From: Marinicella sediminis | Lineage (GTDB): Bacteria; Pseudomonadota; Gammaproteobacteria; Xanthomonadales; Marinicellaceae | Assembly: GCF_002000055.1 (NCBI RefSeq) | Contig: NZ_MVBD01000005.1 | Location: 62,001 to 126,000, forward strand | Direction of reading: 5' to 3' | Length of the DNA: 64,000 bases | Shown: one piece after another, positions 45,892-55,015 of the stretch | How the letters are laid out: each line of letters starts with the position of its first letter | Position numbering within the stretch: position 1 is the stretch's first letter | Notes under the pieces: generated by a model | The model's database searches: none | Told to the model about the DNA's origin: nothing | The model's input: only the letters and a program-made list of their open reading frames with translations | Made by a program: the position numbers and the translations under genes

Positions 45892-46185
45892 ATGAGTATT
45901 CCCAAATTACCGCAATTTGAAACCCATCAAAAAGAAGCCTTTTCAATCCATTTTAATGACGCAGAACCTGGTCAGTGTCTGGTAAAAGAAATCACCATAG
46001 CCAATGCACCGGTCAATGCTCAGGGTGAGCAACAGTTTTCAGTGGTGTTTTCATCAGCAGATCCTAAGGTGTATGAACAAGGCGTGTATCCGGTCAGTCA
46101 TCCCGAACTGGGTGACTTCGATTTGTTTCTGGTGCCAATATACGGAGATGACTCTGAAGTACACTATGAGGCAGTTTTCACCTGA
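45892..46185 (+). CDS. Small DUF6916-like protein
   Basis: 97 residues, acidic, no signal peptide. The C-terminal half reads GVYPVSHPELGDFDLFLVPI followed by YEAVF, the pattern of DUF6916 proteins that accompany tail-collar protein clusters. It shares this pattern with the Tat-exported protein encoded at 46699-47052 (both have QQF-V/I-x-x-F and a short (Q/E)AV(Y/F) end). Preceded by its own promoter-like dyad. Its 3' end overlaps the convergent GNAT gene by 22 nt. The family name is from recognition and moderately sure; function unknown. Confidence 0.65.
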   Translation: MSIPKLPQFETHQKEAFSIHFNDAEPGQCLVKEITIANAPVNAQGEQQFSVVFSSADPKVYEQGVYPVSHPELGDFDLFLVPIYGDDSEVHYEAVFT

Positions 46186-46706
46186 TCCTCAGATTCCGGA
46201 TACCATTCCATGTATTGATAGACTCCTTTGTCTTCGACTTGCTGGAAGCCATGCTTAACATACCAGGCATATGCGGGATTGAAATTCTCCACATGAATAA
46301 CGACTTTCTTTGCTTGCTCACGGGCTTCAGCCAGTAATTCCAAAAGCAGGGCTGTGCCTATGCCACGGTGCTTATAATCAGGGAGTAAAGCCACATCAAT
46401 CAGACAAATAGATACCTCGTCACGATCAATGTAGATACGTCCAATACATTCATCATGTCTCAGAATCAGTAACTTTTCGGCATGTGGATAGTGGGTCAGG
46501 TAATGCTCATGTTGAGCGGTGAACTGCTGATGCAAAAATGCAGTTCTTTGTTCATCATTCCATGGAGCTTGCTGTACTTCTTCCCACCTTGTGGTTCGGT
46601 ACAACTCAGACAAAAAAGCCATGTCATCATCTGACATGGCTTTAAAGTGAATGTCTGAAGGCAGCTTTTTCGGTTTATCACGAAATGCCAGCCAGGCTTC
46701 AGGCAT
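46164..46706 (-). CDS. GNAT family N-acetyltransferase
   Basis: 180 residues. The acetyl-CoA-binding motif A is VALLPDYKHRGIGTALLLELLAEA, with the usual (Q/R)xxGx(G/A) pattern; a following VHVENFNPAYAWYVKHGFQ is the motif B region. GNAT enzymes transfer acetyl to small molecules, antibiotics or protein N termini; the substrate here is unknown. It overlaps the upstream Tat protein gene by 8 nt, and so is the last gene of the five-gene operon. A linked role with the tail-collar proteins is inference from position. Confidence 0.85.
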   Translation of the reverse strand: MPEAWLAFRDKPKKLPSDIHFKAMSDDDMAFLSELYRTTRWEEVQQAPWNDEQRTAFLHQQFTAQHEHYLTHYPHAEKLLILRHDECIGRIYIDRDEVSICLIDVALLPDYKHRGIGTALLLELLAEAREQAKKVVIHVENFNPAYAWYVKHGFQQVEDKGVYQYMEWYPESEDQVKTAS

Positions 46707-47052
46707 GGGTTCTCCAGTTGTATACAGCTTGTAACTGGTTTTGAGACACAGGTGTCATAAAAATCTCATGCCGCTGACCATTGTGATCGGTCAGTTGATA
46801 GATTTTCTCAGCCAGTCGTTCACTGCCATTGTGAACATCAAAAGTCAGGATAAACTGTTGCCGATCCTGATTGGCGGTTGGCATACTGTGACCAGATAAG
46901 GTCATCTTCATACCGTCTGCCGTTTTCATTTGATGTCCGGCTTCAAATTGCTTGACAGGAGGCTGAATACTGGCTGCGTGTGCAGTCGGTCCAGCGACCA
47001 GTGAAAAACCCAGGCCTCCCAGGATTGATTTTGCAAATAATCTTCTGTTCAT
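46699..47052 (-). CDS. Tat-exported DUF6916-like protein
   Basis: 117 residues from ATG 47052 with GAGAGG 6 nt upstream; a TTG at 47058 is also in frame. The N terminus is MNRRLFAKSILGGLGF, a twin-arginine signal (RR at 3-4, a slightly shortened S/T-RRxFLK), ending at THAA. The mature part has QQFILTFDV and MTPVSQNQLQAVYNW, related to the plus-strand protein at 45892-46185. The gene starts 2 nt after the third tail-collar gene. Folded export through Tat suggests a cofactor or prefolded partner. Function unknown. Confidence 0.65.
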   Translation of the reverse strand: MNRRLFAKSILGGLGFSLVAGPTAHAASIQPPVKQFEAGHQMKTADGMKMTLSGHSMPTANQDRQQFILTFDVHNGSERLAEKIYQLTDHNGQRHEIFMTPVSQNQLQAVYNWRTHA

Positions 47053-47054
47053 GA

Positions 47055-47579
47055 TCAACCTCTCGATGGATACAAGCCCTGCAGGGCAATGATGAAATTA
47101 ATGGCCAGGAATGGCTGCATGTTGTTATGCGGCTGGCTGCCACCGGTGTTAGGCAATGTGCCATCATTCAACGTGTTGCTTAAATTATCGGTGCTGTCAT
47201 AAGCTGCTCCACCTGCGCTGCGGGATAACACAGATGTGGCCGCAGGACTGAAAATCGTTCCAGGTGAAGTCGATGACTGTATTGAGTGATTGTGACTGGG
47301 CATTTGTGCTTCAGTCAAAGTGACCTCTTCAACACCGCCCCTTTGACCCAATCGACGCGAAGTCAGGCCGGGTCCACGACCCGGGTGCATGGGTGCACGC
47401 CCTTGCAGGTTGGGTAAAGCAGTTGTGGAACGACCATCACCACCATAAGTCGTGCCGATCAATGAAAACAAGGCGGTGTTTTGTGAAATGGGTAACAATT
47501 GGCCATTACAAAAAGCCCAACTGCGGGGAGCAAAGTTACCAGCGAATATGCGTATTTCTGCGATAAATGGTTCTGACAT
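47055..47579 (-). CDS. Tail-collar (MdpB-like) protein, third paralogue
   Basis: 174 residues. N-terminal tail-collar domain: MSEPFIAEIRIFAGNFAPRS then WAFCNGQLLPISQNTALFSLIGTTYGGDGRSTTALPNL, the signature of the microcystin-dependent / phage tail collar family. A Gly- and His-containing middle (MPSHNHS) and a C-terminal NFIIALQGLYPSRG follow. No signal peptide. It departs from its siblings at one or two consensus positions (S for G after APR, N for D in CNGQ). Function unknown; homologues occur in phage tails and in many non-phage bacterial clusters. Confidence 0.85.
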   Translation of the reverse strand: MSEPFIAEIRIFAGNFAPRSWAFCNGQLLPISQNTALFSLIGTTYGGDGRSTTALPNLQGRAPMHPGRGPGLTSRRLGQRGGVEEVTLTEAQMPSHNHSIQSSTSPGTIFSPAATSVLSRSAGGAAYDSTDNLSNTLNDGTLPNTGGSQPHNNMQPFLAINFIIALQGLYPSRG

Positions 47580-47591
47580 GGTGAGCTCCTG

Positions 47592-48110
47592 TTAGTTACG
47601 GCTTGGATAAATACCAAACAATGCAATGATGAAGTTGACACACAAAAAGGGCATCAGGTTGCTGTGTGACCGGCTACCACCGGTGTTATTCACTGATGTG
47701 TTTAACAATGTGCTGTTGGCTCCAGCTGGTCTGAACACCCTTACATTGGCAGATGAAGCCAGGTATTGGCCATTGTTACTGCTTTGAGTACCTGCTGCGG
47801 TTGATGCCTGAAACACATGACTGTGTGATGGCAATTGATTGGTGGTCAGGGTTTCATTTTCTGTACCCAGTTTAGCTCCCAGTCTGCGAGGTGACAATCC
47901 AGGGCCGCTACCTGCATGATTAGGTATTCTTCCTCTCATATCGGGCAAACCGAACGTGGTTCTTCCGTCTCCTCCATAAATGGTTCCCAACAGGGAGAAC
48001 AACGCATCATTCTGTGACACTGCCAACAACTGACCATCACAAAACGCCCAGCCCCTTGGGGCAAAATTTCCGGCGAACATTCTGATTTCGCCTACAAATG
48101 GTTCTGACAT
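47592..48110 (-). CDS. Tail-collar (MdpB-like) protein, second paralogue
   Basis: 172 residues. Begins MSEPFVGEIRMFAGNFAPRG with WAFCDGQLLAVSQN and YGGDGRTTFGLPDMRGR, and ends FIIALFGIYPSRN. The HxH motif (LPSHSHVF) is in the middle. GGAG precedes the ATG by 6-7 nt. Paralogue of its neighbours, with about half of positions visibly shared over the first 75 residues and a variable region after residue 110. Twelve nucleotides separate it from the next gene. Confidence 0.87.
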   Translation of the reverse strand: MSEPFVGEIRMFAGNFAPRGWAFCDGQLLAVSQNDALFSLLGTIYGGDGRTTFGLPDMRGRIPNHAGSGPGLSPRRLGAKLGTENETLTTNQLPSHSHVFQASTAAGTQSSNNGQYLASSANVRVFRPAGANSTLLNTSVNNTGGSRSHSNLMPFLCVNFIIALFGIYPSRN

Positions 48111-48119
48111 AATGGACTC

Positions 48120-48626
48120 CTAGTTACGTGATGGGAACAAGCCGCGAAGGGCGATACAAAAATTGACTGCCAGGGTAGGCTGCATGTTGTTATGCGCTTG
48201 TCCACCCCCGGCGTTGGTCACTTCTGTGGTCAACCCGATCAGGTTTCCCCCACTGTTATAACCGTTGTTGAATCCGGCCAATGTGTTGTCATTTGGAATC
48301 GGAGCGTCTCCGTCCTTGTTGGATGCGTTGACACCATGGTTGTGTTGTGGCATTTCATTGGCTGCCAGGGTGTGGGTTTCCTCACCACTTTTTTGTCCCT
48401 CGGTGTATGTGCTGCCATCACCCTGACCGACATGGATCGGTGTACGGCCACGCATTTCCGGTAAAGCAAATGAGGTGCGACCATCACCGCCATAGGTGGT
48501 GCCCAACAGTGAGTACAGTGATTGATTCTGATTGATCGGCAGAATTTGCCCATCACAGAACGCCCAACCCCTGGGTGCAAAATTAAAGCCCATCATCCTG
48601 ATTTCGGCCAAGAATGGTTCTGACAT
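48120..48626 (-). CDS. Tail-collar (MdpB-like) protein, first paralogue
   Basis: 168 residues. First gene of the operon. MSEPFLAEIRMMGFNFAPRG, WAFCDGQILPINQN, YGGDGRTSFALPEMRGR, then MPQHNHGVN and a C-terminal CIALRGLFPSRN. It has an internal Gly/Asn-rich variable part (about residues 115-135). AGAGGGGA lies 8-9 nt before the ATG, a strong ribosome binding site, and a TATAAT is 31 nt upstream. The three paralogues are likely to associate as trimers, as collar proteins do, but that is inference. Confidence 0.87.
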   Translation of the reverse strand: MSEPFLAEIRMMGFNFAPRGWAFCDGQILPINQNQSLYSLLGTTYGGDGRTSFALPEMRGRTPIHVGQGDGSTYTEGQKSGEETHTLAANEMPQHNHGVNASNKDGDAPIPNDNTLAGFNNGYNSGGNLIGLTTEVTNAGGGQAHNNMQPTLAVNFCIALRGLFPSRN

Positions 48627-48699: not shown

Positions 48700-51600
48700 T
48701 TATTGCGGACATGAGGTGCCCGTTCCGGTGACGCCACAGACCGTGCTGGCGTCAACACCTCCAGCAAAGAATGGGAACGGCCCGTTGGTCATCACGTTGC
48801 CGTTACCGACATGGTGGGTGTTTTTATCTACACTTGCAGTTCCTGCTCCACAAAGTGCGAATTCACCATTGGCTGAACCTGAGTAGCCCGGTAAATTAAA
48901 GTTGGCCAGTGTACTGATCTGGTCTTTGTAAACTGCATTGGATGAGAAGGCTCCACCACTGGCATCAAAGATGTTGTTTCTGACATCCAGGCAAGCGGTT
49001 CCAGTCTCTGTCCCAGCACCACCTACCAGGTTGTACATCGCGGAGAGCGAAAAGGTTCCACCCATTTGGTCCACGCGGTTATTGATGATGGTGGCATTGA
49101 AATCAACATCGGTATTGGCAATGGTCTCAATACCTGCCTGCCCATCAACACCTCTGACCACGTTATTGTCAATTGTGGTGTTATGCTGGATGTTTTGTGA
49201 AGCACCCACGGCAATCCCATTGGCAGTCGTTGAACCAGAAGAGGCTACCCCGTTGGTGCCCACTGTGGTGCCGGTGACTTCGCCACTGATGGTCCCAGCG
49301 CCTGACACATAGTTAACGGTGATGGCGTTACCCTCTGCATTGGTGTGTAAACTGGACAGCACGTCATAGCCCTGAGTGATGTTGCCACCTCCATTGCCTC
49401 CTGACAAGGTGATGCCACCACCGCCTGATACGATGTTGGGGTGGCTGTTGTTGAAGGTGTTGTTTTGCATCAGCGCAGTGAAGTTGGATGTATTCAATAC
49501 ATTGGTCTGGATCATGTCGCCACGGGCGCCGAGGAAAGCCACCCCATCTACGGTGAGGTTGATGATGGCTGCATTCTGAGACTCTACCTGAATGCCGTCA
49601 TTGCCTAAGCTGCCTCCCGGGTTGGCATCCAGGCCAATCAATGCCGCGTCATTGGCGCTGTCATTGAAGGTGATGGTCCCTGTGCCGGTGTTGTTCATGA
49701 TTTTCACCTGGTCTTCAAGGCCACCTGAGATGTTGTTGCCGGTAAACACCGATGTGCCCAGCAGATTGATGAACCTTACCGCGCCTTCATCAAAGCCTCC
49801 GTTGGTGCCGTTGATGCCATTGATGATGGAATCAGTCAGGGTGAAATTGGTCACTGTCTGACCAAAGATGGCATAGTTGCTAAAATCATTGAACTGCATG
49901 TTACTCAGTTGCACACCGCGGGTATTATTCATCAACAAACCCACACCAGCGGTGGGCGATGCTGCATCAGCACCAGTCTTGTTTTGAATGACGCCACCAG
50001 ATCCTGCGAGAGAGGCTGTACCAGTAACAACCAAGCCCCCTGAATTCCCGGTGTTAATCAGGTTGATACCCACGCCGGGCGAACCTGCACCGGTACCAGC
50101 TGAAATCCTGCGGTAGACCAGGTTTCCTGCACCAATGGTGGTGTTTTGTACATCCAGGGCAGTACCTGTGGTTGTGGTGATGGTGCTGCCACCATTAACA
50201 GCAGAAACGGTACCACCGCCTGTGGCTGTAAATGCAGCATTACCACCCGTGTTCAGGTTCAGGATTCCTGAAAAGTTGATTGCCGCTCCGGTGTTGTTGT
50301 TAAGGAAAATACCGGTACCTGTGTCTGTGATGTTGCCTGAGAGGGTGGTGGTACCACCGCCTCCATTGGTCAATACCTGCAGAGAACGTCCACTTGTGTT
50401 GGAGATGGTGCCGGCATAGGTTGCCAATCCGCTACTGTTGGATATGCTGACTGCAGCGCCTGCGGCGTTTTGTACATTACCACCGTTGATGTTAATCACT
50501 GCACCATCGTTATTGGACAGGGCAATGGCTGAGCTGTTGCTGCCATTGTTGTTGATGGCAACGCTGGTGACGGTGATGGTGCTGCCTGCTGTGACGGTGT
50601 TGTCGATACCGAAAGCTGTGGTGCCTGAGCCGTTCTGGTTGTTGATGGTGACATTGCCAAAGGTACCAGTCTGAACACCACCAGTGATGGCATTGATGAA
50701 GACACCCGAACTGTTGCGGTTGTTGACGGTGACATCGGCAAAGGTATAGGTCAGGTTGGAATTTTGAATGAACAAACCGATGCCAGAGGCATTGTCGATA
50801 TTGGTCAGGCCGGTTACTGTGAAATTACCCGAAACGTTGGCCAGATCAATGGCTTCAGAGGCGCTGTTGGCAGAGGCAATGGAATCAAAGGTCATGGCTG
50901 CAGTGCCGGTGTCCAGATCAACGGCTTTGCCGGTACCTGAAATGGCCACGGTGTTAATGGTGGCTGTCCCAAACATATTGCCCACGATGCCGGTATTGGC
51001 GCCAGTATTACCAATGTTCAGTCCTCTGATGGTGTTGCCGGTACCCAGGGTGGTGGTGCCGGTCAGGGTGGGTCGTGTCGTGCTGGTAAACAGCACGTCG
51101 GGGTTGGGCAGGGTGTTGTTGACATTGAACTCGAGGTTCACACCGTTACCCAGCAAGACCTGATTGTTGGCCAGGGTGATGTCACCGGTGGTGCTACCGG
51201 TGCCAGTGAAGACATAAATCGTCGACCCGGCAGTAGAGGGTACATCGGACAAAGCGTCAAATCGTGAGTTATCACGCCCTGAACCGCCTGCGACAGCATT
51301 GCTGTCCACGTAATACACCAGATCTGCGGTGATGGTGATGGACACGGTTGCTGTTGATGTCAGGCTGCCATCTGACAGGGTGTAATTAAACGTATCAACC
51401 ATGCTGGTCATGCCAACAGGTGGGTAATAGGTGAAATCACCATTGGTTTGCATCACCACGTCACCGCCCAGGGTTGACGTGCCGTTGAACGGTGCTGTGA
51501 GGTCACCAAAGGCCTCTGAGACCACCAATGGATCCAATTCCGGATCGGTGTCGTTGGCCAGTACATTGTTGGGGTGTCTGATGGGCGTTGTGGCGACACC

Positions 51601-54600
51601 GGCTGTGGCGTGCAAGCCCGTGTTGCCAATGGTTTCATAACTGTCGGCTACACCAGTTGGTGCGGTGTTGTCGTCATCAGTGATGGTCGCTGTGTGGGTG
51701 GTTTGTGCACCCAGTGATGCCAATACCGGACCGGCCAGATTCTGTAACTGCAGATTAACGGTTTCATCACCTTCGGTAGCCACATCGTCCAATGGGGTCA
51801 GTGTGGTACTTTGTGTATTGCCATTGACCGATCCCACGGCAAAAGTCACCATTTGGGTGCCAAAGGCCGTGTAATCAGTGGCAGAAGTGGCCGTTCCGCC
51901 ACCGGCATCGACTGCATCTGCAGTGATTGCCACATCCAGTTGACCGCCGCTGGGAATATTCAGAAGTACGTTGATGCCAAGGGCTGTACTTTCATCAGCG
52001 CTGGCACTGGCGGCCAATTGAAATTCGACTGTGGCAGTGTCATTTTCATTGATGGTGGTGGTGTGGGTAGATTGTGCACCAATCGAGCCGGTACCAACCA
52101 CATTTTGTAGCGCCAGATTCACGGTTTCATTGTTTTCCACATTGTTGTCATCCACTGGCGTCAATACGGCATTTTGGGTGGCGCCATTGGTTGAACCCAT
52201 CGGAAAGGTCAGGGTTTGGGTGCCTATGGCCGCATAGTCAGTCGCGTTGGTGGCTGAACCACCACCTGCATCAACCACATCTACCGACAAAGGTGCGGTC
52301 AGAGGAATGGGGGTGGATAAGACCACAGCCACATTCAATGGAGTCGCTTCAGTAGTGGCAGAGGCGGCTGCCTGGAACACCACGGAAGCCTCATCATCAG
52401 TGATGGTGGCGGTGTGTGTGGTTGGTGCCGCCAGTGAAACGGCTGCCGGTCCGGAAAGGTTTTGCAGGGCCAGATTAACGGTTTCATCACCTTCTGAGTT
52501 GGGATCATCCAGTGGCGTCAGGGTGGTGCCCTGGATGGTGCCGCTGGTGGTGCCAATCGGGAAGGAGATCAGTTGTGTACCAAAAGCGGTGTAGTCCACA
52601 CCACTGGTGGCTGATCCGCCACCTGCATCAACGGCATCAGCTGTCACCGCCACATCCAGCTGGCCGCCAGATGGAATGGTGAGCAAGACATTGACGGTCA
52701 ATGCGGTTGACTCATTCACCGAGGCACTGCTGGCCGCCTGAAAAGCCACTGTGGCGGTGTCATCTTCAGTGATGGTTACTGCATGAGAAGCCTGTGCACC
52801 GATGGAACCGGTACCCACCAGATTCTGCAAGGCCAGATTGACGGATTCATCGTTTTCGACATTGTTGTCATTCACGGGTGTCAATACGGCATTCTGTACC
52901 GTGCCATTGGTAGAGCCCAGGGGGAAGGTCAGGGTTTGGGTGCCTACGGCAGTGTAATCAGCACCGCTGGTAGCAGTGCCTCCAGTGGCATCAACCACGT
53001 CCACTGACAAGGGTGCGGTTAAGGGAATGGGGGTGGTTAAGACCACGGCCACATTCAGAGCGGTTCCTTCATCGGTGGTTGCGCTGTTGGCACTTTGGAA
53101 TGCCACAGAAGCCTCGTCATCGGTGATGGTCACGATGTGGGTGGTCTGAGCGCCCAGTGAAGCGGCAGGTGGACCTGCCAGGTTTTGCACCATCAGATCG
53201 ACGGTTTCATCGCCTTTGTTGGTCGGATCATCCAACGGCGTTAAAGTGGTGATTTGGGTGTTGCCATTTGTGGTACCAATTGCGAATGTCACAGTTTGGG
53301 TTCCAAAGACCTGGTAATCCACACCACTGGTGGCCGTTCCGGAGAGGGCGTCAACCACATCGGCGGTGATGGCCACATCCAATTGTCCACCACTGGGAAT
53401 GTCGATACTGACCAATACGTCCAGTGGGGTGTTCTCATCGCTGGTGGCACTGCCGCTGACCGCAAATTGAACAGCTGCGGTGTCATCTTCGGTAATGGTT
53501 GCTGTATGCGTGTCCTGGGTGCCAATCAAACCAGGGCCGGTGATGTTCTGAATCTGCAGGTTAACGGTTTCATTGTCTTCGACATTGTTGTCATCAACAG
53601 GCGTCAACACAGCATTGAGCGTGGTGCCATTGGTGGCTCCCAATGGAAAGGTCAGGGTTTGTGTGCCGATGCTGTTATAGTCCGAACCATCGGTGGCGGT
53701 TCCACCTGTGGCATCAACCACATCAACTGAAACCGCTGCCGTCAACGGGGCAGTGGCAGTCAGTTCCACAACCACATTCAGTACAGTTCCTTCATCTGTG
53801 GTGGTACTGGTGGCAGACTGGAAGGCCACGGAAGTGTCATCCACCACATCATTGGTTACGGTGACAACAAGGTCCTGAACATCGGTGGCTGCACCGGAAT
53901 CGGTGACTGTTACCTGCACATTGTAGATGTTGTCTGTGCCAGCATCACCTGGATTTTCAAAGTCAGGTGCCACAATGAAGGTCAGGACGCCTGTGTTGGC
54001 ATCGATATTGAACAAGGCATCGTCGATGGCGCCGGTAATCGCATAAGTCAATCCGCCACCTTCAACATCACCCTCCGGATCGGTGGCGTTCACATCGATG
54101 ACAGCGGTTTGGTTTTCTTGTACGCTCACCGCTGCTGGGGTGGTGATGGATGGGGCCTGGTTTTCAACATCCACCAGGTCCATACGGAAGTAGATGTTGT
54201 TGTTGTCTTTGGTGACAAATACCGCAGTGAGGTCTGCAAAATTTCCGCTGACTGTGGTGTCACTGACCGGATCGGTGTTGGCCGGATTAATGCCTGACCA
54301 GTCGTTGGTCAATCCGTCCACAATGATGGTAGCGGCCCAGACCAGGGTTGAAACACCAATGAAAATGATACCGACTGTCATTTGACGCGACAAGTGGCGA
54401 CGGGTGAACAGCATAAGGGCCAGCAGTAACAGGCCCATGGCCAGGATGCCCAATCCGGGAACGGGTAAGGCAAAACCCAGGCTGATGGGTCCGCCAGTGG
54501 GGTTGGTCAAAGCCACGTCATCTGCGGTTGCTGAATCGACATGGTAATAAAGAAACACACTGCGTGATCCAGACAGGTCCAGGCTGCTTTGGCTGACGGC

Positions 54601-54939
54601 GGATTCAATCACATCAGCACCGCTGAGGCCAGTATTCAGACCCAACGCTGCAGGACTGATGGCAGTACCTGCATCGAAGGCTGCACCGGTACATTGGTGC
54701 AGATTAGTGGCGGTGATGACCGGCGGTGTTGAAGAGTCTGTGGTCACTGTGACCCTGGACTCAACGCCATTGACGGTGGTGGCAAAATCAGGCAGATTCA
54801 CCACACAGCCAGTGCCGGTATTGGCATCTGTGTCTAAATAGACGTGATAGGAACGATTTTGTGCGTTGGCGACAGACACCAGCAAAGAGCACATCAGGAA
54901 TACCGAAACAGCAATGCGAGACAACATGTTAAAACCCAT
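48700..54939 (-). CDS. Giant exported Calx-beta, cadherin-like and beta-helix protein
   Basis: 2079 residues from ATG 54939 (54927 is also possible). Signal peptide to about residue 26. An N-terminal domain of about 130 residues leads to PVPGLG and a membrane-like helix at 159-181 ending RRH, then a second hydrophobic stretch starting M187. Next come a cadherin-like domain (about 262-363), six Calx-beta-type domains in three A-B pairs (about 369-1091), a cadherin/VCBS-like domain with LANDTDPELDPL (about 1094-1205), and a right-handed beta-helix of about 870 residues starting YYVDSNAVAGGSG. There is no C-terminal membrane anchor or sorting signal; it ends CGVTGTGTSCPQ. Likely a surface or secreted adhesin-like protein; binding partner unknown. 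The Calx-beta part looks more G+C-rich than the neighbours. Confidence 0.85.
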   Translation of the reverse strand: MGFNMLSRIAVSVFLMCSLLVSVANAQNRSYHVYLDTDANTGTGCVVNLPDFATTVNGVESRVTVTTDSSTPPVITATNLHQCTGAAFDAGTAISPAALGLNTGLSGADVIESAVSQSSLDLSGSRSVFLYYHVDSATADDVALTNPTGGPISLGFALPVPGLGILAMGLLLLALMLFTRRHLSRQMTVGIIFIGVSTLVWAATIIVDGLTNDWSGINPANTDPVSDTTVSGNFADLTAVFVTKDNNNIYFRMDLVDVENQAPSITTPAAVSVQENQTAVIDVNATDPEGDVEGGGLTYAITGAIDDALFNIDANTGVLTFIVAPDFENPGDAGTDNIYNVQVTVTDSGAATDVQDLVVTVTNDVVDDTSVAFQSATSTTTDEGTVLNVVVELTATAPLTAAVSVDVVDATGGTATDGSDYNSIGTQTLTFPLGATNGTTLNAVLTPVDDNNVEDNETVNLQIQNITGPGLIGTQDTHTATITEDDTAAVQFAVSGSATSDENTPLDVLVSIDIPSGGQLDVAITADVVDALSGTATSGVDYQVFGTQTVTFAIGTTNGNTQITTLTPLDDPTNKGDETVDLMVQNLAGPPAASLGAQTTHIVTITDDEASVAFQSANSATTDEGTALNVAVVLTTPIPLTAPLSVDVVDATGGTATSGADYTAVGTQTLTFPLGSTNGTVQNAVLTPVNDNNVENDESVNLALQNLVGTGSIGAQASHAVTITEDDTATVAFQAASSASVNESTALTVNVLLTIPSGGQLDVAVTADAVDAGGGSATSGVDYTAFGTQLISFPIGTTSGTIQGTTLTPLDDPNSEGDETVNLALQNLSGPAAVSLAAPTTHTATITDDEASVVFQAAASATTEATPLNVAVVLSTPIPLTAPLSVDVVDAGGGSATNATDYAAIGTQTLTFPMGSTNGATQNAVLTPVDDNNVENNETVNLALQNVVGTGSIGAQSTHTTTINENDTATVEFQLAASASADESTALGINVLLNIPSGGQLDVAITADAVDAGGGTATSATDYTAFGTQMVTFAVGSVNGNTQSTTLTPLDDVATEGDETVNLQLQNLAGPVLASLGAQTTHTATITDDDNTAPTGVADSYETIGNTGLHATAGVATTPIRHPNNVLANDTDPELDPLVVSEAFGDLTAPFNGTSTLGGDVVMQTNGDFTYYPPVGMTSMVDTFNYTLSDGSLTSTATVSITITADLVYYVDSNAVAGGSGRDNSRFDALSDVPSTAGSTIYVFTGTGSTTGDITLANNQVLLGNGVNLEFNVNNTLPNPDVLFTSTTRPTLTGTTTLGTGNTIRGLNIGNTGANTGIVGNMFGTATINTVAISGTGKAVDLDTGTAAMTFDSIASANSASEAIDLANVSGNFTVTGLTNIDNASGIGLFIQNSNLTYTFADVTVNNRNSSGVFINAITGGVQTGTFGNVTINNQNGSGTTAFGIDNTVTAGSTITVTSVAINNNGSNSSAIALSNNDGAVININGGNVQNAAGAAVSISNSSGLATYAGTISNTSGRSLQVLTNGGGGTTTLSGNITDTGTGIFLNNNTGAAINFSGILNLNTGGNAAFTATGGGTVSAVNGGSTITTTTGTALDVQNTTIGAGNLVYRRISAGTGAGSPGVGINLINTGNSGGLVVTGTASLAGSGGVIQNKTGADAASPTAGVGLLMNNTRGVQLSNMQFNDFSNYAIFGQTVTNFTLTDSIINGINGTNGGFDEGAVRFINLLGTSVFTGNNISGGLEDQVKIMNNTGTGTITFNDSANDAALIGLDANPGGSLGNDGIQVESQNAAIINLTVDGVAFLGARGDMIQTNVLNTSNFTALMQNNTFNNSHPNIVSGGGGITLSGGNGGGNITQGYDVLSSLHTNAEGNAITVNYVSGAGTISGEVTGTTVGTNGVASSGSTTANGIAVGASQNIQHNTTIDNNVVRGVDGQAGIETIANTDVDFNATIINNRVDQMGGTFSLSAMYNLVGGAGTETGTACLDVRNNIFDASGGAFSSNAVYKDQISTLANFNLPGYSGSANGEFALCGAGTASVDKNTHHVGNGNVMTNGPFPFFAGGVDASTVCGVTGTGTSCPQ
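51667..53835 (-). repeat. Three tandem 723-bp units (A-B Calx-beta pairs) inside the giant gene
   Basis: The coding sequence for VAFQ-type repeat starts falls at 53829, 53106 and 52383 (minus strand), exactly 723 nt apart, or 241 residues. Each unit has an A domain ending in TITEDD or TINEND and a B domain ending in TITDDE or TITDDD. A domains share DVVDA(T/G)GG(T/S)AT and LTFP(L/M)GSTNG; B domains share IPSGGQLDVA(I/V)TAD and GDETV(N/D)L. A and B differ from each other more than A differs from A. Confidence 0.85.
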
Positions 54940-55015
54940 ATTAAATTTTTGAATGATTGTGAGGAACGCACAACACAACTGTGCTTATATAATTGATTCT
55001 TCACCCTTTTAAACC

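Follow-up and report, generated by a model that had tools for sequence, protein, structure and literature searches.

A recurrent bacterial gene set of three Collar-domain paralogues, a GNAT acetyltransferase and DUF6916 proteins, described from a locus of Marinicella sediminis

Gene content of the locus

The DNA considered here is a stretch of 64,000 nucleotides (nt) from Marinicella sediminis (contig NZ_MVBD01000005.1, positions 62,001 to 126,000), in the following called the window, and the subject is a minus-strand locus which encodes three short proteins with the phage-tail domain Collar (PF07484), a DUF6916 protein with a putative signal of the twin-arginine translocation (Tat) type, and a GNAT acetyltransferase. 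A sequence-only reading of the window had proposed these five genes as an undescribed system, and their packing is exactly as it claimed, with gaps of 9, 12 and 2 nt followed by an overlap of 8 nt between the open reading frames (ORFs). The proteins are also of the kinds named there: Pfam assigns Collar three times and Acetyltransf_1 once, and the Tat-like signal consists of the motif NRRLFAK, a hydrophobic stretch and AHA (NRRLFAK...GGLGFSLVAGPTAHA, judged by eye and by pattern). The motifs WAFC(D/N)GQ and YGGDGR are common to all three collars, which differ slightly in their last five residues (Table 1). The five-gene set is thus real and, as shown below, co-conserved, but it was drawn too narrowly, since a second DUF6916 gene and a gene for a giant repeat protein belong to it.

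The collars score 94.6, 103.9 and 98.8 bits in Pfam, above the gathering cut-off of 24, and the two DUF6916 (PF21880) proteins score 75.3 and 32.0 bits with a cut-off of 27. The listed ORF of the Tat-signal gene begins with TTG at 47058. The end of the GNAT gene is overlapped by 22 nt by the end of the second DUF6916 gene, and the giant-protein gene, which lies on the same strand as the collars, ends 73 nt upstream of collar A. At E <= 0.001, the matches in the Marinicella assembly comprise three collar and two DUF6916 proteins, all at this locus, and no further match to the GNAT was found in the assembly at this threshold. Nothing unusual was found in the RNA structure ahead of collar A (z +1.05); promoter-like sites numbered 9 (10.3 expected) and terminator-like sites 14 (9.8 expected, standard deviation 2.8). 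A terminator-like hairpin of 12 pairs with a T run is located at 46643-46615 on the minus strand, within the early GNAT coding sequence, where it might reduce the expression of the GNAT compared with that of the collars.

Table 1 Features of the collar locus. Coordinates are window positions, except in the last row, where they refer to the named loci (aa, amino acids)
Feature	Coordinates	Strand	Evidence or remark
Giant repeat protein, 2092 aa as listed	48700..54978	-	Calx-beta, cadherin (Pfam); Sec-type signal MLSRIAVSVFLMCSLLVSVANA by eye
Collar A, 168 aa, end FPSRN	48120..48626	-	PF07484, E 1.6e-28; class A
Collar B, 172 aa, end YPSRN	47592..48110	-	PF07484, E 4.3e-30; class B
Collar C, 174 aa, end YPSRG	47055..47579	-	PF07484, E 3.3e-27; class C
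Tat-signal DUF6916 protein, 117 aa from ATG	46699..47052	-	PF21880, E 1.3e-7; twin-arginine motif
GNAT acetyltransferase, 180 aa	46164..46706	-	PF00583 (Acetyltransf_1), E 7.9e-12
Second DUF6916 protein, 97 aa, no signal, convergent	45892..46185	+	PF21880, E 4.2e-21
HxH (HNH) of collar A, putative trimer metal site	48336..48344	-	Sequence
HxH (HSH, residues 96-98) of collar B	47817..47825	-	Invariant in 104-row alignment
HxH (HNH) of collar C	47286..47294	-	Sequence
Copies of a protein of about 400 aa	L095 9115-10338; L104 4765-5988; L124 9148-10341; L128 3263-4483; L131 9127-10362		

Recurrence of the gene set and the three collar classes

A species-genome collection was scanned with the collar alignment, and the best 80 of 562 confirmed places together with the window gave 81 loci. 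These were chosen by likeness to the window's collars, and the fractions obtained therefore describe this subfamily. Among these 80 places, the best named match of collar B was in Marinicella meishanensis (88%). A tandem collar triple was recovered by ORF calling in 70 of the 81 loci, and the triple-bearing loci are labelled as belonging to nine phyla (Pseudomonadota, Acidobacteriota, Chloroflexota, Bacteroidota, Planctomycetota, Myxococcota, Actinomycetota, Thermodesulfobacteriota, and Kiritimatiellota); in addition, plasmid annotations in Paenibacillus (Bacillota) and in Deinococcus list three 'tail fiber' genes and a GNAT. Within 2.5 kb of the 70 triples a GNAT gene was present in 65 cases, a DUF6916 gene in 52 and both in 51, compared with no match to the GNAT, DUF6916 or collar models in 40 control stretches taken at fixed coordinates from 20 sampled genomes. 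The co-occurrence in other genomes which the sequence-only reading had suggested looking for is thus found, and the scattering of the members which it had named as speaking against a system is not seen. In the window's own genome and its relatives, collars occur in 26 of 41 genomes, 22 of which have exactly three matches. Among 398 genomes drawn evenly from the phylum, DUF6916 was detected in 44 and Collar in 100, both being present in 43 of the 44 (Fisher p 1e-28), and 50 of 53 DUF6916 matches lay within 5 kb of a listed collar. That the collar triple and its partners represent one conserved, host-owned system is in our judgment close to certain.

The three collars of a triple fall into distinct classes. 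A tree built with 99 collars, taken from 33 loci, grouped the proteins mainly by gene position and not by organism, with 16 changes of the position label compared to a mean of 47.0 after shuffling. Class assignment was based on 66 loci, two of the 68 complete named triples having been removed as near-copies, and leave-one-out classing gave one collar of each class in 62 of them at the first pass and in 64 after four rounds of relabelling, whereas labels shuffled within loci gave a mean of 27.6 and a maximum of 46 over 20 runs. The order A-B-C was found in 56 of the 66 loci. One of each class is still present where the order is permuted, which is the case in two Bacteroidota (C-B-A), a Granulosicoccaceae bin (B-C-A), Alloalcanivorax (B-A-C), and Antarctobacter (C-A-B). 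Outside the training set, one of each was assigned in 25 of the 29 phylum-sample triples, for which the nearest training collar was mostly 41-65% identical (75-85% for one triple, 30-49% or less for three), and in 7 of 11 triples picked by hand from IMG/VR contigs, the failures there being L176, L177, L183, and the phage-type locus L193, which stands for nine similar ones. Arrays away from the locus ends comprised 69 triples, five singles and no doubles in the near subfamily, and one of the singles (L155) has a second collar 540 nt further on, at the contig end. Taken together, these sequence comparisons make it well supported for this subfamily that A, B, and C are three non-interchangeable parts.

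Several arrays differ from the simple triple. Two complete triples each are present in L102 (3429-7769) and L159 (5184-9073), the IMG/VR locus L180 has six collars in a row of the classes BAC-BAC, and L179 (1-5456), an IMG/VR contig of 5.5 kb, consists nearly entirely of nine tandem collar genes of the classes ABC-ABC-ABC. In L193 (4887-6979), which belongs to a phage contig 141,809 bases long, two genes for collagen-like tail fibres precede three tandem collars, all of which fit class B best.

Collar fold, partner proteins, and export

The tail fibres of phage T4 (gp12) and cyanophage A-1(L) are homotrimeric, and in T4 gp12 and gp37 a metal is bound by the HxH motif on the axis of the trimer, in keeping with the wording 'knitted trimeric metal-binding fold' in a paper title. 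The PDB search with a profile built from 104 collars matched the A-1(L) tail fibre (8kec, 8e-9) and T4 gp12 (1ocy, 2.6e-5), with the collar HxH aligned to an HQH of 8kec. Both histidines, H96 and H98, which are placed behind the collar part and ahead of the last strand as in a phage collar fibre tip, are invariant in the alignment of the 104 collars and are retained in at least 90% of each class. The earlier guess of trimers or ligand-binding proteins agrees with this fold family. With the weak model of the collar monomer, the eight best Foldseek rows were phage tail-fibre or baseplate chains, none of them at E < 0.001.

In each collar, two conserved parts enclose a variable middle some 46 residues long. 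Identity over residues 1-98 is 72-78% within and 59-66% between classes, residues 144-172 are 70-75% identical within and 54-64% between classes, whereas residues 99-143 show 19-24% identity both within and between classes, with lengths of 43-56. For pairs that are 70-97% identical, the ratio of nonsynonymous to synonymous substitution was estimated as 0.27 in the middle and as 0.04 and 0.06 in the flanking parts; given the saturation of synonymous sites, and with some genes entering the 88 pairs more than once through overlapping loci, this is a contrast of rates only, and positive selection on the middle was not shown. In one study, Solibacter collar paralogues appear among the groups with a positive-selection test statistic (PMC3174227). 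Middles score more alike within a locus than across loci (23.0 versus 12.7, p 2e-5) and their lengths within a locus are correlated (rho 0.32-0.51), to which shared ancestry could contribute.

Large ORFs are frequent neighbours of the triples. Around 50 triples with 3.5 kb on both sides, an ORF of 800 or more aa was present in 37 cases compared to 9 of 37 controls (p 5e-6), and one of 1500 or more aa in 25 cases compared to 1 of 37 (p 7e-7). Pfam analysis of 22 of the 48 large ORFs near triples yielded Big_9 (12), Cadherin_5 (10), Cadherin_4 (10), and Beta_helix (4), and residues 1181-2092 of the window's giant protein matched 15 of 79 other ORFs of at least 800 aa in the loci fetched by then.

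The collars of the window are without a signal peptide. Some relatives that have no GNAT nearby possess Sec-type leaders instead, and the mature start aligns by eye with residue 2 of the leaderless collars, as in L318, where the leader ends in ...APVLAQA and the mature protein starts with SEPYVG. In the phylum sample, such leaders occur in none of 46 arrays near a GNAT gene and in 7 of 23 GNAT-less arrays (p 2e-4), and in both samples together in none of 118 and in 7 of 32, respectively; these counts exclude GNAT-less arrays less than 2.6 kb from a region end, and the rule missed L320 and L323, which are leader-like by eye. DUF6916 is near none of the seven leader-bearing arrays. The absence of leaders where a GNAT is present fits a cytoplasmic enzyme which acts on N-termini and is useful only where the N-terminus stays uncut. 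In the named loci where a GNAT lies within 3 kb, 193 of 194 collars that start with Met have serine or alanine at residue 2; in those without, the count is 9 of 14. The best NCBIfam row of the window's GNAT is rimI (TIGR01575) with 38.8 bits, below the cut-off of 86.4, so that this row gives no more than a hint as to the type of substrate.

DUF6916 genes occur in two forms. By pattern, 14 genes near the 70 triples encode a Tat-type protein, 13 of them on the collar strand at a median distance of 4 nt, whereas 53 genes within 3 kb of the triples are without the Tat pattern, 31 of these on the opposite strand. The structural model of DUF6916 is confident, with a predicted local distance difference test score (pLDDT) of 95.8. 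Its weak PDB fold rows include several chains of PilZ type.

Interpretation, alternatives, and known systems

We read the collar set as a binding system, widespread in bacteria and either surface-borne or secreted, whose building blocks are phage-fibre-tip (Collar) proteins, and assign to this reading a probability of roughly one half; our preferred view, likewise at about even odds, is that A, B, and C join into a heterotrimeric tip with a binding partner outside the cell. A, B, and C are likely to stand where a phage fibre tip has three copies of a single chain, resulting in one A-B-C heterotrimer which the histidines would likely clamp around a metal ion and in which the three different middles would likely serve as the ligand-binding head. 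It is less certain that the tip acts outside the cell, where the giant protein may carry it or lie next to it in an adhesin-like fibre. More speculatively, the GNAT might acetylate, in the cytoplasm, the N-terminus (M-S-E-P-F) of the collars; DUF6916, with its Tat form beside the collars and its signal-less form often on the opposite strand, might be an export or assembly partner of leaderless collars. The modifier roles which the sequence-only reading had given to the GNAT and the Tat protein change accordingly in part: the latter is a member of DUF6916, and for the GNAT, cytoplasmic action on the collars is more likely than modification of a surface particle. In its most far-reaching form the proposal is that duplication turned a homotrimeric phage tip into an obligate A-B-C heterotrimer serving as a modular surface-recognition head in many phyla, whose leaderless subunits are acetylated at the N-terminus by a dedicated GNAT, exported with DUF6916 (in some lineages on its Tat signal) and not by the Sec leader seen in some relatives, and mounted on a giant repeat protein; as a whole, we consider this unlikely.

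Many 'tail fiber protein' annotations in bacteria may have been mistaken for phage debris, and if the three-class unit is real, a good part of them would describe one host-owned binding system with definable stoichiometry. DUF6916 would thereby obtain its first functional setting, and the transition from a homotrimer to an obligate heterotrimer would become testable in one family. Leaderless collars with a GNAT and Sec-leader collars without one would also pose a new question of protein export.

Several observations weigh against this interpretation. Many of the named loci are metagenome bins, and single phylum labels may therefore be wrong. Branch support in the 99-collar tree is weak (2 of 96 inner branches starred), and 4 of 66, 4 of 29, and 4 of 11 triples in the three sets are not one-of-each. 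Of the inner arrays of the wider phylum sample, those clear of the ends, 28 are triples, 38 singles, and 9 doubles, and a count of three is therefore not a rule for the family at large. The model of a single collar chain is poor (pLDDT 60.8, predicted template modelling score 0.36), as could be the case for an intertwined oligomer, although this is no proof of one, and the fold of DUF6916 has no confident match, with nothing at E < 0.001 in PDB or BFVD. No ORF of 800 or more aa is near 13 of 50 triples, and 9 of 37 controls do have one. A recognisable Tat-type DUF6916 accompanies only 14 of 70 triples, and carriage on the Tat signal therefore cannot be general. With respect to the leaders, 25 of 32 GNAT-less arrays are also leaderless, and on a tree of 90 of the 150 arrays the leader changes only twice, so that its link to the GNAT is not independent of ancestry; the pattern is one or two events at the level of clades and not a statistical law. 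Finally, the residue-2 signature of GNAT action, striking in the named loci, was set aside, the phylum sample giving only 29 of 46 versus 8 of 21 arrays (p=0.07).

The conserved A, B, and C could instead form three homotrimers, that is, separate binding proteins for different ligands whose cassette is kept because all specificities are needed. This alternative is possible, if on the unlikely side. Phage collar tips such as those of T4 gp12 and gp37 are homotrimeric, and single-collar loci (5 of 74 in the near subfamily, 38 of 75 in the phylum sample) indicate that a collar can work alone. However, the absence of doubles among the 74 inner arrays, the six- and nine-collar arrays in whole ABC units and the retention of one of each class despite changed gene order would all be less expected of proteins acting singly.

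A cytoplasmic or lysis-released complex without adhesive function, for example for the binding of metabolites or nucleic acids and with the GNAT as an enzyme, would agree with the missing signal peptides of the window's collars and with the GNAT, which without a signal should be cytoplasmic. We regard it as quite improbable in view of the Sec-type leaders in some relatives and of the giant repeat proteins and Tat-type DUF6916 next door; moreover, one Ruegeria pomeroyi protein of pfam07484 was reported in the exoproteome of this species during co-culture with Synechococcus (PMC4949626). COG4675 proteins also appear in a soil metaproteome list (PMC5579227).

Of ten genes flanking the locus, nine were assigned by Pfam and one had no match; none was linked to a phage family, including tail tube, sheath, baseplate, capsid, and terminase. 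The assigned families are peroxiredoxin-type, cyclophilin, Leu/Phe-tRNA transferase, pyridine nucleotide-disulphide oxidoreductase, alanine dehydrogenase, FtsK, LolA, an MgsA-type ATPase, and a weak PD40 match. The embedding in a prophage that was named beforehand as contrary evidence is thus not seen. All 465 matching phage records were less than 60% identical to collar B, and the best 80 IMG/VR loci contained DUF6916 in one and GNAT in two cases. Descent of the locus as a remnant from a prophage, tailocin, or contractile injection system, for which the phage-tail nature of the Collar domain and one triple near an eCIS_core protein (L184) could be adduced, is scarcely credible and was rejected on the grounds of neighbours and distribution: the cassette turns up in numerous genomes among differing neighbours, and no match to the signal-less DUF6916 protein was found in 50,697 phage records. 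In L184 (1990-3951), the eCIS_core (PF13699) protein is encoded just upstream of the collar triple, and an Nramp transporter downstream suggests that this contig is bacterial. A known anti-phage defence system was also rejected, no PADLOC hit being obtained with six proteins.

Within the literature searched, which left most subscription papers and all preprints outside, no description of a system of three collars, GNAT, and DUF6916 and no mention of DUF6916 was found; the designation 'undescribed' stands to this extent, but single collar proteins such as RhiB and MrpB have already been described. MrpB (microcystin related protein B) of Microcystis presumably carries a Collar domain and belongs with COG4675. 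Its gene is annotated as a phage tail gene and co-transcribed with mrpA, beside which there is one such gene, unlike the triple discussed here (PMC11448079). RhiB, encoded in rhiABC(D) of Rhizobium leguminosarum, is like the window's collars a Collar-domain protein of a bacterial operon, which according to two reports may act in plant-bacteria interaction (PMC13133039, PMC6969944). This operon has a single collar together with RhiA and RhiC, which are without a Pfam-A domain (PMC13133039), and the consulted portions of the rhiABC accounts name no GNAT, DUF6916, or giant protein, whereas the window has three collars with GNAT and DUF6916. T4 gp12, a short tail fibre, and the A-1(L) tail fibre share the Collar-type stretch with the window's collars, and in A-1(L) the HxH can be aligned, but they are parts of phage virions, in contrast to three short stand-alone paralogues with bacterial partners. 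The MAT fibres of Bdellovibrio resemble the proposed tip as phage-fibre-like trimeric bacterial adhesins with diverse tips, and differ in their longer chains, signal peptide, and S74 domains (in 13 of 21), while the window's collars are 168-174 aa long without signal or S74 match in Pfam; the crystal structure of a MAT fibre is a symmetric trimer of one chain, and the word 'collar' is absent from the accessible text of the source (PMC10769870).

Other genes recur beside the triples. In alphaproteobacterial loci, a gene between collar C and GNAT encodes a protein of some 400 aa whose start is similar from locus to locus (Table 1); the copy of L095 had no Pfam match. Sulfotransferase genes adjoin the triples in L165 (4494-5339) and L178 (2865-3770) according to Pfam, and in L167 (9158-9982) according to a similar N-terminus only. 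Genes for periplasmic binding proteins with twin-arginine-like starts are located directly behind the triples of L107 (9046-10299) and L122 (9127-10401), and an ABC substrate-binding protein is annotated at the corresponding place behind the triple of Deinococcus ficus (L173).

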